Shown piece by piece: positions 17,307 to 24,589 of a DNA stretch of 39,189 nucleotides. Made by a program: the position numbers and the translations under genes. The DNA comes from a bacterium (GTDB taxonomy: Bacteria > Hydrothermota > 32-111): NCBI GenBank assembly GCA_028698175.1, contig JAQVDU010000006.1, positions 1-39,189 on the forward strand, written 5' to 3'. The stretch's first letter is position 1. The number at the start of each line of letters is the position of its first letter. The notes below the pieces were generated by a model. That model was not told the DNA's origin. It was given only the letters and a program-made list of their open reading frames with translations, and ran no database searches.

Positions 17307-18107
17307 TTGAAATCAAAAAAAGAAATAGCGCTTGAAAAGGAACTTTTAAGGCGCCTTGACGGAAAGTGCCTTGAAATGGCCAACCTGATCTTCAATGACG
17401 CTGAGATAAAATACATGATGGATTATGCAAACAATGTATCTATAAAGCGCCTCGGATTCAATGACCACGGGCCTGTCCACATGAAGACTGCGTCCTTGAA
17501 CGCGATGATAATGTTCGACCTTTTAAAAAACGCGGGAGTTCAGTTCTCCCTCGTCTCCGAGCAGGTCGGCACGATTGAGGACAGCAAGGTGGCCGTTTTC
17601 ATGGCTTCAATGCTCCATGACATAGGAATGACTGTGGGAAGAGACAACCATGAAATCTACTCTATGATTTTCGGAGTCAACATAATCGACAGGCTTTTAA
17701 AGGAGATTTACAAAACAGAAGCGGAGAAGAGAATCATTCTCCGCTCTCTCGTAATGGAAGGAATCGCAGGCCATATGGCCACGCAGAAGATACACTCTCT
17801 TGAAGCAGGCCTTGTTCTGATAGGAGACGGATGCGACATGGAGAAGGGCAGGGCGAGGATACCCACTCTTTTAAAGACAAAACCGAAGGTGGGTGACATA
17901 CACAGGTACTCCTCAACCTCCATTCAGGACCTTTCAATCACAAAGGGAGTGAGAAAGCCGATAAGGATAACTGTTAAGATGAGCGAATCTGTGGGATTTT
18001 TCCAGATAGAGTCGGTTCTCTTCCCGAAGATACTCTCCTCCCCTGTCAATCCATACATTGAGCTTTATGCCGGAGTGATAGGTCAGGAGATGCTTCAGTA
18101 CTTGTAA
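17307..18107 (+). CDS. HD-domain phosphohydrolase-like protein
   Basis: HMKTASLNA...MASMLHDIGMTVGRDNHE...EGIAGHMA; TTG start preceded by AAAGGAG. Confidence 0.8.
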   Translation: MKSKKEIALEKELLRRLDGKCLEMANLIFNDAEIKYMMDYANNVSIKRLGFNDHGPVHMKTASLNAMIMFDLLKNAGVQFSLVSEQVGTIEDSKVAVFMASMLHDIGMTVGRDNHEIYSMIFGVNIIDRLLKEIYKTEAEKRIILRSLVMEGIAGHMATQKIHSLEAGLVLIGDGCDMEKGRARIPTLLKTKPKVGDIHRYSSTSIQDLSITKGVRKPIRITVKMSESVGFFQIESVLFPKILSSPVNPYIELYAGVIGQEMLQYL

Positions 18108-18129
18108 TCTTCGTCTTTTTTGGTATAAT
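18102..18129 (+). promoter_or_regulatory. Promoter consistent with a leaderless transcript
   Basis: TTGTAA, 16 nt, TATAAT (18124-18129), then 6 nt to ATG 18136; no SD. Confidence 0.55.
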
Positions 18130-18135
18130 TGAAAT

Positions 18136-18822
18136 ATGAGGCGGATATACGGATTAATCGGATTGGTTTTAATATTCACAAACTGTGTCACATTATTTCA
18201 TTCTGCAAGGGTATTGGAGCCTGGAGAGTATGAGACTGGCGGCTCTTTTACGCTTGGCGGAATGGCTACTCAGGATTATGAAGGACTAATGGGCAATGAA
18301 AGGCTTTTTATAGAATACAGGGCGCCTTCAACTCCTCCTATCGGTCTATTTGTAAGAAACGGCTGGAGCAACGGCCTTAATACAGGAGCTTACCTCGGAC
18401 TTGCCTTTATTGATTTTTTTGTCACTAAGAGAGTAATTGCTGAGAGAAATAATGTCCCTTCAGTGGCTCTCACTGCCGATTTCTCCATAAACTCTGTTAT
18501 TTTTCACAATGAATATTGTGCAGCTACTTCACTGGATCTTTTTAAAAGCAAAATTGACGACAATAAGAACGTAAATCCGTTTCTGAAAATAAGAGGCGGG
18601 TATAAAATCTGGAGCATGGCTGATATATTGTCCGGATCTACATATTCGGGAAGCCTCCCTGTCGTAGGCCTTATAATTGGAAATGAGATGAAGGTGTCGG
18701 AAACATCATATCTTGTTGCAGCCGCATCATTTGAAACAATGTACGGAAGTCAGTCGTGGGCGGATGGTCCGTTTTCTTTTGAATTGAATTTTGATTTAAC
18801 GCTGTCAAGAAGGTCCAAATGA
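18136..18822 (+). CDS. Lipoprotein of unknown function, paralog of the gene at 22465
   Basis: Lipobox LIFTNC; first 83 nt 82/83 identical to 22465-22547; diverged homologous mature region. Confidence 0.8.
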   Translation: MRRIYGLIGLVLIFTNCVTLFHSARVLEPGEYETGGSFTLGGMATQDYEGLMGNERLFIEYRAPSTPPIGLFVRNGWSNGLNTGAYLGLAFIDFFVTKRVIAERNNVPSVALTADFSINSVIFHNEYCAATSLDLFKSKIDDNKNVNPFLKIRGGYKIWSMADILSGSTYSGSLPVVGLIIGNEMKVSETSYLVAAASFETMYGSQSWADGPFSFELNFDLTLSRRSK

Positions 18823-19424
18823 AATTAAAAATAATATTCATATTTATTATTTCTATTTTCTTTTTCACAGGATGCTTGCCGATGCTTGAGCAGGCCGAGC
18901 TTTTGGAGAAGAATTCTGTTGTCGCATCAGTTTCCGGCTACCATAACTTCATCGAAAGCGACGACTCGCTCTACTCAAGAGGGTTCGACAATTATGAATA
19001 TGCATTCGGCGGAATACAGGTAAGGGCAGGTCTCTCCGACAAACTTGAAGTGAGCGGACAAATGGATTTTGACAGGATTTGCGCAGGCGCCAAATTTCTG
19101 CTTTTTGAAAGAGACAAGAACATTGTTACGGCCAAGATTTCCATGGGAAGCCTCATACTTCATGAGATAATGCCTTCAATGATAAAGCCAGCGCTTTTCT
19201 ACGGAAGAAAACTTGACGACAATGCCGGCGTTTATGCAGGAACTTCTGTCGAGTATGCCGGTAAATTTGACTATGCGGGAATGCTCTTCGCCGGAGTATC
19301 AATTCGTCCGATGGAAGGTTTGATGCACGCCATTAAACTTGAGGGCGGATTTATAAGAAAAATAACCTATTCGCACATGAATTATTTTTACGCAGGCATA
19401 TCCTTTGATTTTCAAATATTCTGA
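18819..19424 (+). CDS. Putative outer-membrane lipoprotein
   Basis: Lipobox FFFTGC; beta-rich alternating pattern; ATGA overlap with upstream gene. Confidence 0.75.
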   Translation: MKLKIIFIFIISIFFFTGCLPMLEQAELLEKNSVVASVSGYHNFIESDDSLYSRGFDNYEYAFGGIQVRAGLSDKLEVSGQMDFDRICAGAKFLLFERDKNIVTAKISMGSLILHEIMPSMIKPALFYGRKLDDNAGVYAGTSVEYAGKFDYAGMLFAGVSIRPMEGLMHAIKLEGGFIRKITYSHMNYFYAGISFDFQIF

Positions 19425-19425
19425 A

Positions 19426-20394
19426 TCATTTCGGTTTCAGATATATCCCTGAATTGGCATATATGAAATACTTGTTGAATCCGCAGATCCAGACACCCGG
19501 CTCCTCAATCCAGGAGACAAACTTACTTTCAGTTCTCGAATAGGCAAAGAGCATGCCATTGTAATTAATCTCATAGACACAATAAAAAAAGTCGCCGTCA
19601 GAATACATATATCGCATATCTTCCCCATCCATGCGGATCGAATGAATATCCAAAAGAGTTGTGTCGCCTTTCAGCCGATTGTTTTCAAGGTAATACTTCA
19701 CTATCATATCGTTGTTCGTAGCCATAAAAAGTGTATCGCAGTTTATGCTCACATTTTTATACTCTGTCGAAAACCCTACAATCTTCTCAAGGCGATGCGA
19801 AGAATCGGCTTTACAGAAATAGATGGAATCGTACTTTGATAGAAAACAGATTTCATTTCCCAGAATAATATCATTCGCCTCAGGTTCCCAGAATGAATCG
19901 GTCAGATTTATTTCCTGATGAAGAAAATCAAGGTTGTAAATGTAGATGTATTCTGAGAGGGAATATGATGGAATAAAATAAAGAAGAGTGCCGTCTATCT
20001 CGACTGACCCGTATTCGAAATTCACATGCTCTTCGATAGCTCTCGAAAGTGACAGCGGATTATAGATTAAAATAGCCGAATCTTTAAATGCGGCAAGATG
20101 TTTACCGTCATATTTCATTGAATTGAAATCGCCTTCTTCCTCCTTCTCATTGATAGCTGTTAATGGCGCTTGTTCATCGCACGAGTAGACCTGCAAAGTA
20201 TAACAATCACAGAATATCAGAGAATCGGTTATAATCGTATTGAAAACTCCCATAATCCCCGCATCCGACACTTTTGAGATATACCTTGAGTCAGGATTTA
20301 TAAAACTACAGCCTGAAGTTAAAACAGTGAAATACAATATGAAGACGATACCGCTCGGAAATAACTTCAAACAGATGCTTTTTTCTTTTTTCAT
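19426..20394 (-). CDS. Lipoprotein of unknown function (possible propeller-like fold)
   Basis: Lipobox VLTSGCSF; SD GGAG upstream. Confidence 0.7.
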   Translation of the reverse strand: MKKEKSICLKLFPSGIVFILYFTVLTSGCSFINPDSRYISKVSDAGIMGVFNTIITDSLIFCDCYTLQVYSCDEQAPLTAINEKEEEGDFNSMKYDGKHLAAFKDSAILIYNPLSLSRAIEEHVNFEYGSVEIDGTLLYFIPSYSLSEYIYIYNLDFLHQEINLTDSFWEPEANDIILGNEICFLSKYDSIYFCKADSSHRLEKIVGFSTEYKNVSINCDTLFMATNNDMIVKYYLENNRLKGDTTLLDIHSIRMDGEDMRYMYSDGDFFYCVYEINYNGMLFAYSRTESKFVSWIEEPGVWICGFNKYFIYANSGIYLKPK

Positions 20395-20431
20395 TTATTC
20401 TCCGTTAATGAACATCATATCTCAATTCTAA

Positions 20432-20902
20432 TCAAAACCTGACTTTTTTATTGTAATATGTTTTTGCGCCTTCAATGAATCCCGCTTTGTAGGAATCATT
20501 TATGTAATCCTTTTTTTTCTTAAGTATGTCGAACTCATCCGTCTCTCTGGCTCTCTCATACAGAAGTCCTACGCCTCTCAGCAGAAGCATTTCAAAACCA
20601 ATCATGAAGCTTGTCTGAGTGAACATTCCCCATCCGTCATAAATGGCTTCTTCATCTGACAGAAAAAGAGGCGCGAACATAAGATAAGCCGCTGAAACAG
20701 TTATGCCCATTATCGCGTCCGTGAATGAGAGAGAGAGGCATGAGCTTGAATTTGTGCAGAATGAACCCGAGGAGTCTATTTTATTTTTTTTCGCGTACTC
20801 TCTTCCCTCGTCATATCCCATCCTGTAATAATCTTTCAGAGTCGGTTCAGCTGCCGCGATTATAAACGGAATAATAAGCAGAAGCATTATGATTTTTTTC
20901 AT
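20432..20902 (-). CDS. Small membrane protein of unknown function
   Basis: Signal/TM N-terminus (MKKIIMLLLIIPFIIAAAEP), internal hydrophobic segments; start reassigned to ATG 20902, ATGA overlap with upstream gene. Confidence 0.7.
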   Translation of the reverse strand: MKKIIMLLLIIPFIIAAAEPTLKDYYRMGYDEGREYAKKNKIDSSGSFCTNSSSCLSLSFTDAIMGITVSAAYLMFAPLFLSDEEAIYDGWGMFTQTSFMIGFEMLLLRGVGLLYERARETDEFDILKKKKDYINDSYKAGFIEGAKTYYNKKVRF

Positions 20903-21444
20903 TGGCTGTAAATCAGCTCGGTTGTTTGCCAGTGAACAAGAAGAACGCACAAATCCATGATTGCCACAACCCCAATATAAGCAGGAGACGTTTTATCATC
21001 GTATGCCAGCCTTCTGTAGAGAGTGTATCCCGTCTGAAGGATAATAACGGCGCCGCTAAGAGTGTTTCTTATCAACTCAATTCTCTCATTCTTCTTCTTT
21101 CTTTGCTCTATTGAAAACTCGTATTTTCTCTTCTTCTTTTCAAGAATAGCGGCTCTTCTTGCCGCAAAGAGACAGTCCGCATCATGATGAATCGCTACTA
21201 TTTCAACAGGCAGTTGTGAGATATTGTCTGAAGCGGAAGAGTCAGCGCATGACCATTCTGTAAAAGAAGGATTCAATGACAAGATATAGCTGTCAAGGTA
21301 TGCCCGCTCAATCAAGACCCTCTCTTCAAATGTCATTGAATCAATCTCAGAAATTCTGAAATCGATTATCTCACCGCTCAGGAAGAGTCCGGTTAAAACA
21401 AAAAACATCAGCAGTATGAATTTTCTATTCGCTGATTCCGTCAA
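20899..21444 (-). CDS. Membrane protein of unknown function
   Basis: ORF with N-terminal hydrophobic segment and C-terminal TM segments; same operon. Confidence 0.65.
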   Translation of the reverse strand: MTESANRKFILLMFFVLTGLFLSGEIIDFRISEIDSMTFEERVLIERAYLDSYILSLNPSFTEWSCADSSASDNISQLPVEIVAIHHDADCLFAARRAAILEKKKRKYEFSIEQRKKKNERIELIRNTLSGAVIILQTGYTLYRRLAYDDKTSPAYIGVVAIMDLCVLLVHWQTTELIYSQ

Positions 21445-22372
21445 TGTAACCTCTCAGGTAAAAAAGGTCTCCTTCATTCAGAGCAACGGAAAGCTTTGTA
21501 AGATTTATCTGCGGATCTTTTAGCAGATAAATCACATTCTTGGAGTAATGAATGATTGAGAATAATATCCATAACAACCCTGCCGCCGATGCATCTTCTT
21601 GGTCATTCCAGCCGTGATATACCGTAATGCCGGATATAATCGCCGCCGGAACAGGCAGCATCATAAATTCAGCCGAAGAGACTGCAAAATCAGAGAACAA
21701 ATTAATCTTTTTGTCATTCTTTGACGCAAAAAAACCGTCAAGATAATTTTTCCGCATCTGTGTCAGGTCGGTTTTTTCTGTAAATGTCATTGAAATCAGT
21801 TTGCTGATGCCAACTTCAGCGGCCGAATAAAGAAGGGATATGACGAAGAATGAGAAAGTCGGACCTATCTGGCTGGTATATATCTCTTCTATATCTTTGT
21901 TGTCCGCACCGCGCACCTTGCCGAAAATGTATAAGACAGGAATAAGAAGGAATGTCAATGCAGGGAGTAGAAAGGAAGATGCTGAAAAATAACTCTCATA
22001 TTTTTCAAGACCGTCCTTTGTCAGAGTATATAGGCCTCTTCTATTTCCGTCAAATAGCAGAATGTTTTTGTTGCTGGGAGACATGAATAAGAGCATGCTG
22101 TCCGGACTCATTACTGGAGAGAAAAACTCCACACTTCTTACAAGTTCCCTGTCATCTATTATTATCGAGTCGTCTGCGGTTACATTAGCCTTATCAATTC
22201 TGATGGAATCAGCTCCAAAACTCAGAAGAGAAATGATTTCTCCGTATTTCTCCTTTTTCAGCAACACTTCCGTTTTCGAAGAATCCTCTGTAATGCCGAT
22301 TATTTCATAAGGAAATATTGCAGTAAATGTAAAGATGAAGAGTGAAACTCCCAACACAATCTTTTTCCCCAT
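21425..22372 (-). CDS. Membrane protein of unknown function
   Basis: Signal peptide MGKKIVLGVSLFIFTFTAIFPYE plus several TM segments; promoter immediately upstream. Confidence 0.7.
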   Translation of the reverse strand: MGKKIVLGVSLFIFTFTAIFPYEIIGITEDSSKTEVLLKKEKYGEIISLLSFGADSIRIDKANVTADDSIIIDDRELVRSVEFFSPVMSPDSMLLFMSPSNKNILLFDGNRRGLYTLTKDGLEKYESYFSASSFLLPALTFLLIPVLYIFGKVRGADNKDIEEIYTSQIGPTFSFFVISLLYSAAEVGISKLISMTFTEKTDLTQMRKNYLDGFFASKNDKKINLFSDFAVSSAEFMMLPVPAAIISGITVYHGWNDQEDASAAGLLWILFSIIHYSKNVIYLLKDPQINLTKLSVALNEGDLFYLRGYIDGISE

Positions 22373-22381
22373 ATTACAGAT

Positions 22382-22409
22382 ATTTTACTACATTAATATT
22401 TTAAGTCAA
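22382..22409 (-). promoter_or_regulatory. Divergent promoter (minus), consistent with a near-leaderless transcript
   Basis: On minus strand: TTGACT (22404-22409), 16 nt, TAAAAT (22382-22387), 9 nt to ATG 22372; no SD. Confidence 0.5.
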
Positions 22410-22428
22410 CGACCTTGAAAAGCAACAC

Positions 22429-22457
22429 TTGATTAAATTGCATTTGAGTGGTATTAT
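22429..22457 (+). promoter_or_regulatory. Divergent promoter (plus), consistent with a leaderless transcript
   Basis: TTGATT (22429-22434), 17 nt, TATTAT (22452-22457), 7 nt to ATG 22465. Confidence 0.5.
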
Positions 22458-22464
22458 TTTTGTT

Positions 22465-23154
22465 ATGAGGCGGATATACGGATTAATCGGATTGGTTTTA
22501 ATATTCACAAACTGCGTCACATTATTTCATTCTGCAAGGGTATTGGATAGAGGAGAGTTTGAAGTTGGAGCGAGTTTAGGGTATTCGGAATCATTTGCGA
22601 AAAGTAAAACTGTCAGCTGGCCATATCACTTTTTCAGTTACTCACACGAGCCAAATGCTTCAAAATTTTTCACTTTAACGTCGAGAGTAGGATGGGGAAA
22701 GGGATTCGTTACGGGAATTTCATTCGGATTTTGTTATGCTGATGCTTTTATAGCAAAGTCCCTGATAAGAGAGAGCAATTCACGTCCGTCAGTCTCTGTT
22801 GCATTTGACGCTTATTATTTTTTCGGAGCTTTTTATACTGAAAGAGGGATTTATCTTTCATCCGAAATCTACAAGTCGAGCGTTGCGAACTACTATAATT
22901 TTAACCCGACTGTAAGAGCTAGAGTAGGATTCGTTGATTGGACTGACAGTGGCTGGCCCACCGATTCTCCAAGTTCGGGGGAGAGGTTTGAAATAAATCT
23001 TTTTTACGGTAACGAAATGCATAATATGGGAAAATCATGGTCTATGCCTTATTTGTCTGTGGGTTTAGAGAGTAAACCTTCATTGGATAAAAAGAGTTTC
23101 GAATCTGCCATTTACTCGATCGATTTCGGATTATCAGTATATTATCGAAGCTAA
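22465..23154 (+). CDS. Lipoprotein of unknown function, paralog of the gene at 18136
   Basis: MRRIYGLIGLVLIFTNCVTLFHSARVLDRGEF...; start reassigned from 22429 because identity with the paralog begins at this ATG and the upstream sequence resembles a promoter. Confidence 0.8.
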   Translation: MRRIYGLIGLVLIFTNCVTLFHSARVLDRGEFEVGASLGYSESFAKSKTVSWPYHFFSYSHEPNASKFFTLTSRVGWGKGFVTGISFGFCYADAFIAKSLIRESNSRPSVSVAFDAYYFFGAFYTERGIYLSSEIYKSSVANYYNFNPTVRARVGFVDWTDSGWPTDSPSSGERFEINLFYGNEMHNMGKSWSMPYLSVGLESKPSLDKKSFESAIYSIDFGLSVYYRS

Positions 23155-23230: not shown

Positions 23231-23258
23231 TTGACTAAAACCGCATTATATATATAAT
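23231..23258 (+). promoter_or_regulatory. Promoter consistent with a leaderless or near-leaderless transcript
   Basis: TTGACT (23231-23236), 16 nt, TATAAT (23253-23258), 8 nt to ATG 23267; no SD. Confidence 0.6.
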
Positions 23259-23266
23259 AACAGACT

Positions 23267-24589
23267 ATGACACTAATAAGAAGCGTTTCCGGCATAAGAG
23301 GTCTCGTCGGAGAGGACCTCAACCCCATGAGGGTTGCAAAATTTGCATCCATTTTCGGTGATTTTGTCGAATCTGGCAAGGTCATAGGCGGAATGGACAC
23401 AAGAAAGTCGGGAGGACCCTTCTCCGAAATATTCCTTTCGACTCTAAACTACAAAGGGCTTGAAACCACCTTTACAGGCGTTGTGCCGACTCCGACAGTG
23501 CTCTTCCTCGTAAGGAACATGAAGTATGACGGAGGATTCATAATCACAGCATCGCACAATCCCCCTGAATACAACGGCATAAAGCTCGTCTCCAAACAGG
23601 GAAGGTTTTTAAACCACGCTGACTACAGGATGTTCATGAAGCTTGAAGAGAAACCTTTGAAATTTAAGGGAATCTTCAAGTCGAACAGGTACGATTCTGC
23701 TCTTTACAAAAAACACATTGATGCTGTTTTAAAACTGCCCTTCGTCAATAAACCGAAAATAAAAAAGAGAAAGCTCAAGGTTGTCTTTGACGGAGGCTGC
23801 GGAGCGGGCAGCATTGTCATTGCCGAGCTGCTCGAAGGTCTCGGAGTGAAGCTTCACACTATAAACACAAACACGGACGGGAAATTCAAACGCCCGTTGG
23901 AGCCGATACCCGCCAACCTCAAAATGCTCGAAAAGGAAGTGAGGAGGGTGAAGGCGGACATAGGACTTGCGACTGACGGAGACGGAGACAGGATAGCCAT
24001 AGTGACCCCCGGAAGGGGCTGCATTTCGGAGGAATACACCCTCGCCCTTTCAGGTCTTTACGCTCTCACCAAGTACAATAAAAAACTCATTGTGATAAAC
24101 CAGTCGACAAGCATCATGCTTGAGCTCTTAGGAGAGAAGCTCGGATTCAAAGTTGTTCGCACTCCCGTGGGAGAGGCAAATGTAGTTGACGGAATACTCC
24201 TTTCCAAGGCGGTTATAGGCGGAGAGGGAAACGGAGGAGTGATACTCCCTTCCGTGAACCTCACAAGAGACGCGCTCGTAGCTTGCGCTCTTCTTATAAG
24301 CATGCTCGCCGAATCAAAGATGGATATAGACGAAATAATAGACGACTATCCGAAGACCTACATGGAGAAGAGAAAGTATGACGTCTCTTCAGCTTCAGTT
24401 CTTGAAAGAACTGAGGAGCATTTCAAGCCCTTCCATCTGGAAAAGACAGACGGACTCAGGGTGAAGTTCAGCGACGGATTTCTGCACGTGAGAAAGTCTG
24501 GCACTGAGCCTATAATAAGGATTATCTGCGAGTTCAAAACAAAAGAGAGGACTGAGGAGATAATAAAACAGATGGAGGGAATACTGTAA
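23267..24589 (+). CDS. glmM: Phosphoglucosamine mutase / phosphomannomutase family
   Basis: SVSGIRGLVGEDLNP, FIITASHNPPEYNGIK, LATDGDGDRIAIV, RKSGTEPIIRII; adjacent to glmS. Substrate inferred from context. Confidence 0.88.
   Translation: MTLIRSVSGIRGLVGEDLNPMRVAKFASIFGDFVESGKVIGGMDTRKSGGPFSEIFLSTLNYKGLETTFTGVVPTPTVLFLVRNMKYDGGFIITASHNPPEYNGIKLVSKQGRFLNHADYRMFMKLEEKPLKFKGIFKSNRYDSALYKKHIDAVLKLPFVNKPKIKKRKLKVVFDGGCGAGSIVIAELLEGLGVKLHTINTNTDGKFKRPLEPIPANLKMLEKEVRRVKADIGLATDGDGDRIAIVTPGRGCISEEYTLALSGLYALTKYNKKLIVINQSTSIMLELLGEKLGFKVVRTPVGEANVVDGILLSKAVIGGEGNGGVILPSVNLTRDALVACALLISMLAESKMDIDEIIDDYPKTYMEKRKYDVSSASVLERTEEHFKPFHLEKTDGLRVKFSDGFLHVRKSGTEPIIRIICEFKTKERTEEIIKQMEGIL

Follow-up and report, generated by a model that had tools for sequence, protein, structure and literature searches.

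How can two genes of one locus share an almost identical start when the remainder of their coding sequences has diverged strongly? The question is raised by P1 (18136–18822, 228 aa) and P4 (22465–23154, 229 aa), two paralogs on the plus strand of the window, that is, the whole stretch of 39,189 nt from an uncultured WOR-3 bacterium analysed here. An earlier note on this DNA had offered gene conversion or cassette-like N-terminal exchange, nucleotide-level selection on a leaderless start, and an antigenically variable surface family as possible readings.

The shared block and its edges in the window

The block occupies 18136–18219 in P1 and 22465–22548 in P4 (plus strand, 84 nt each), and contains the start codon, the signal peptide, the lipobox (FTN-C) and an 11-residue tether. 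Direct comparison of 18136–18218 with 22465–22547, where the identity ends, gives 82/83 matching bases. The sole mismatch, a T/C difference at block position 51 (TGT/TGC), is synonymous and falls in the lipobox Cys codon, just as had been read by eye. When codon columns are shuffled, the best matching segment of the pair (score 79) lies far above the maximum of 2000 shuffles (28), and every within-genome block pair of the two species compared below beats all 2000 shuffles. Upstream of the ATG, the two window copies share one extra match (T at −1) and then diverge, the last 90 upstream bases being unrelated (z = 0.3). Downstream, the identity is lost abruptly after codon 27–28, in line with the earlier description, and a short similar tail extends to about codon 32.

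The barrel-coding parts beyond the block (18220–18822 in P1 and 22549–23154 in P4, plus strand) are homologous (local alignment z = 15.5) and about 28.5% identical in amino acids, in agreement with the claim that the mature parts are only recognisably homologous. At identical residues, 25/26 codons are identical in the block and 22/52 (0.42) downstream. This is an abrupt step at the block end; the gradual decay that the earlier note had named as evidence against its proposal was not found in the codon comparison. Judged from these codons, the downstream parts of P1 and P4 are saturated at synonymous sites.

A predicted family of lipidated outer-membrane barrels

The AlphaFold2 model of P1 contains 11 strands from residue 32 (pLDDT 77, pTM 0.74), and both P1 and P4 are predicted to form closed transmembrane β-barrels of about 10–11 strands. 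The right edge of the block lies 3–4 residues before the first predicted strand, so that the block spans the signal peptide, the lipobox and the tether. Foldseek, applied to P1 only, finds its best matches among the outer-membrane barrels OmpT/Pla, OmpA, NspA and OpcA (E = 3e-6 for barrels of the OmpT type and 8e-6 for those of the OmpA type); at about 10% identity these matches point to fold resemblance and say nothing on activity. The lipoprotein signal, judged by eye, is composed of a hydrophobic stretch followed by TNC (conserved, as FCNC, in the copy from another genus), in which the residues at −1 (N) and −3 (F) depart from the classical consensus. Together, these features predict a lipidated outer-membrane β-barrel, and we infer a surface location for the P proteins. 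No family model of Pfam or NCBIfam matches them. When 147 genomes of the phylum were searched with an HMM, only three genomes, all from this family of WOR-3, yielded full-length members; the other matches were weak and remote.

The locus in a same-genus relative

The window was compared with the corresponding locus of a same-genus genome, WOR-3 bacterium UBA2202 (G001, contig C31, 33,953 bases, matching DCUY01000008.1 in length). The comparison covers two species with one draft assembly each, that of the window (G000, 1.96 Mb) being 91% complete. In both species the locus sits between an HD-domain gene and glmM, with P4 upstream of glmM. The relative's gene order is HD gene, P1-lipo2-m1-m2-m3-m4, P2-lipo2-m2-m3-m4, P3, P4, glmM, in which the second unit is an old copy. 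The window holds only unit 1, composed of P1, the downstream lipoprotein gene lipo2 (18819–19424, plus strand) and m1–m4 (19426–22372, minus strand), together with P4; unit 2 and P3 are absent.

All four P genes of the relative carry the block, and these copies are 82–84/84 alike (97.6–100%). The search for copies that the earlier note had called for thus yields two in the window's genome, four in the relative and none further in G000–G005 (own, same-genus, same-family and one same-class genome). Neither inverted copies nor other long matches were found on either strand of the assembly. Between the two species the blocks agree at 71–75/84 positions (85–89%). At nine sites each genome has its own fixed base; these sites fall in six codons and change three amino acids, at codons 5, 7 and 8 (Y/I, L/F, I/F) in the signal-peptide core. 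Within genomes all differences between copies are synonymous, one in the window (over 83 nt) and one each in the relative's P3 and P4, and these leftovers indicate that homogenisation was not perfectly synchronous.

The relative also bears on the block edges. Its P2 and P3 have related upstream regions and are identical to 20 nt before the ATG, and its P1 and P2 are 98% alike to about codon 38. The claim that identity starts at the ATG therefore holds for the window pair and fails as an absolute boundary of the family. The ATG edge is the end of upstream homology, not a fixed cutting site in this barrel-lipoprotein family. Because identity can run past the ATG and past the block, ordinary homologous recombination fits better than a site-specific cassette.

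The neighbouring genes provide built-in controls. Over their first 28 codons, the relative's co-duplicated lipo2, m2, m3 and m4 are 48–62% identical and show no homogenisation. Their ordinary, diverged starts indicate that homogenisation does not extend to the tandem unit as a whole. Moreover, in about 250 kb sampled per genome, no start-anchored blocks were found besides those of the P family.

Several other segments stand out in the two genomes. The window's m4 (21425–22372) shares 86% nucleotide identity with its counterpart in the relative, with 74% of synonymous codons unchanged, compared with about 60% (41–49%) for m1–m3; m4 is either unusually slow or recently exchanged between the species. 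The glmM promoter and first 28 codons (window 23245–23350) are 95–100% identical between the species, a level well in excess of that in the remainder of glmM. The longer coding repeats in the 250-kb samples are T9SS tails, a regulator domain and contig-end repeats. The T9SS type A sorting tails (L076 11979–12157, L081 705–887, L050 554–653, L061 636–735; TIGR04183 match tested for L076 and L081) show 83–86% DNA identity over 100–180 nt between different proteins of one genome, and are possibly a second homogenised targeting segment, at the C-terminus. On the relative's contig C8 (L057 5067–7922), a stretch of about 2.9 kb aligns to its reverse complement at 70% and so makes up an inverted repeat or array of great length. 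Repeats of 40–170 nt with 78–98% identity lie at several contig ends of the relative (L050, L052, L059, L061, L063, L068) and represent a dispersed family that may break the assembly.

Block and mature parts follow different trees

In the following, W1 and W2 denote the window's P1 and P4, B1–B4 the relative's P1–P4, and C1 the other-genus copy. Copies that evolved separately would leave W1 nearest to its positional ortholog B1 along the whole gene. The block tree groups the copies by genome, with W1+W2 supported at 100/100 and a W1+B1 grouping rejected (p-AU 7e-11). The mature-protein tree follows position: W1+B1+B2 is supported at 100/99 and W1+B1 at 89/91, whereas W1+W2 (p = 3e-4) and a grouping of B1–B4 (p = 4e-5) are rejected. 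W2 and B4 as sisters are neither shown nor rejected (p = 0.37), so the positional orthology of P4 rests on synteny. The conflict between the two trees indicates that, once the species had split, the block was homogenised within each lineage. As in concerted evolution, paralogs are closer within a genome than to their positional orthologs, and the trees of the converted and unconverted segments disagree. From these comparisons, we consider it highly probable that concerted evolution has been limited to the signal peptide, the lipobox and the N-terminal tether, and its simplest cause would be gene conversion of the RecA type, acting in both lineages since the split. Gene conversion or N-terminal exchange, as first suggested, thus finds support in the conflicting trees, the genome-specific fixed differences and the four copies in the relative.

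The process may be pictured as follows. P1 and P4 would have arisen long ago as tandem paralogs in a family of predicted lipidated outer-membrane β-barrels. In each species, their first ~84 bases would have been repeatedly overwritten from a sister copy by homologous recombination (gene conversion, probably RecA-dependent), while the barrel parts, presumably too diverged to recombine, would evolve separately. The block edges would then lie where homology stops: to the left stand promoters or upstream genes that are unrelated, to the right barrel codons that have diverged. The common export/lipidation signal would be under purifying selection, probably together with a codon constraint, and this would help to keep the block alike and therefore recombinable. 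We infer both the RecA nature of the conversion and its benefit; both genomes contain a recA homolog. The length of the tract counts against conversion, since 84 bp is a short substrate for RecA to recombine efficiently.

Leaderless-type promoters and nucleotide-level constraint

P1 is preceded by a leaderless-type promoter (18102–18129, plus strand; TTGTAA-16-TATAAT) 6 nt from the ATG, with no Shine-Dalgarno sequence, and P4 by another (22429–22457, plus strand; TTGATT-17-TATTAT) at 7 nt. Such −35/−10 pairs 6–7 nt before the ATG, without a well-placed Shine-Dalgarno site, are found at W1 and W2, at B1–B3 and at C1, unlike most other window genes, which have Shine-Dalgarno-like sites. The spacing is that expected for leaderless mRNA, which we predict for these P genes. 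In addition, synonymous sites of the block are unusually conserved between the species (21/24 and 19/23 codons), and only 0.45% of 28-codon windows of neighbouring genes (outside m4) reach 0.83.

Both features would be expected if nucleotide-level purifying selection maintained the block as a leaderless translation-start/secretion element, or as a partner of a co-evolving trans-acting RNA or protein. Such selection, however, would need nine parallel substitutions (three amino-acid codons) in every copy of a genome. Moreover, B4, which sits 17 nt downstream of P3 and has an AAGGAG site, carries the block without a leaderless promoter, so that leaderless initiation alone does not explain the block. 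The RNA fold of the block is not unusual (z = 0.8 and 0.0), Rfam gives no match to it, the assembly holds no other long match on either strand, and C1 is only 43–45/84 alike. Selection on a fixed element alone is therefore an unlikely cause of the block identity. The earlier suggestion of selection on a leaderless start keeps its promoters and its synonymous conservation, and founders on the nine between-species differences, three of them in amino acids, and on B4. Conversion alone, for its part, does not predict the high between-species synonymous conservation, which makes a nucleotide-level constraint beside conversion likely.

A rearrangement that breaks in an interval holding the block

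The sole rearrangement between the species at this locus concerns unit 2 and P3, present in the relative and absent from the window. Its breakpoint can be placed in an interval of about 175 nt (22373–22548) that is bounded by m4 and by P4's mature part and includes block copy 2. To the left is the ortholog of the relative's unit-1 m4 (87% aa identity), and to the right P4-glmM. The upstream side of W2 resembles that of B2 (z = 6.9), whereas the downstream side is that of P4-glmM. Since the unit copies differ more than the species do (m4 38% versus 87% aa identity), loss of unit 2 and P3 in the window lineage would be the simplest course. A crossover between blocks would give the window's arrangement, which is one event and not proof.

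The position of this breakpoint could suggest that the block is an active recombination junction of a variable surface-protein system, in which crossovers swap or delete barrel cassettes. We find this doubtful, as it stands on a single rearrangement event, the barrels are too diverged for recent swapping, no block copies are inverted and no recombinase gene was seen in the cluster. Furthermore, the P genes have promoters of their own (five of the six block-bearing genes; the sixth, B4, lies in an apparent operon), and no silent cassettes, single expression site or invertible promoter were found at the block-bearing genes, each of which is a complete frame. The assemblies thus hold no evidence of switching, silent cassettes or an expression site, and the proposal of a mosaic or antigenically variable family is not borne out by them. 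It is similarly improbable that the block is a selected portable targeting module, running from the first base of the predicted leaderless mRNA to the barrel and serving as a preferred crossover site at which barrel domains are joined or lost.

Least plausible by a wide margin is a recent duplication after the split followed by very fast barrel evolution, the alternative set against exchange in the earlier note: it would yield identical starts without recombination, but it is ruled out by the synonymous saturation downstream, which protein-level selection cannot cause, and by the mature tree, which joins W1 to its positional ortholog to the exclusion of W2 and places the split before speciation, P1 and P4 standing in the same places in both species.

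Comparison with known systems

In the Borrelia erp genes (ospE/ospF/elp, on cp32), a promoter/leader/localisation sequence has been joined to many diverse parts by recombination (PMC10016077). Like the P genes, they form a lipoprotein family with a common leader polypeptide and short sorting sequence and a strongly different remainder (PMC10016077). The P genes differ in that they are arranged in tandem beside housekeeping genes, their promoters are not shared, their mature parts are without exception barrels homologous to one another, and the block can be seen to have drifted in a genome-specific manner between two species. In Pneumocystis, a short conserved stretch (CRJE) starts the variable MSG surface-protein genes and is a proposed recombination junction; this eukaryotic system has about 80 donor genes and one expression site (PMC2743713), none of which was found for the P genes.

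A second bacterial parallel is provided by babA/babB and homA/homB of Helicobacter pylori, whose segmental concerted evolution is attributed, in the account given in PMC3960876 (citing Pride and Blaser 2002), to RecA-dependent intragenomic recombination. As described there, these are likewise outer-membrane paralogs in which one segment is closer within a strain than between strains and the other segments follow the gene. In that account the homogenised segment is the 3′ part, compared among strains of one species, whereas in the P genes it is a 5′ targeting block of 84 nt, compared between species.

In the open-licence literature we found no description of a homogenised 5′ targeting block of this kind, seen between species and with co-duplicated controls, in a leaderless, tandem family of barrel lipoproteins. 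The P genes offer a clean two-species case, from a little-studied and mostly uncultured phylum, in which the export/lipidation signal evolves as a unit across paralogs and the exported domains diverge past synonymous saturation. They suggest that homogenisation can persist over a very short tract, and warn that start-anchored identity must not be taken for recent duplication. Segmental homogenisation is already known from Borrelia erp and H. pylori bab/hom, and the P-gene block is a variant of it.
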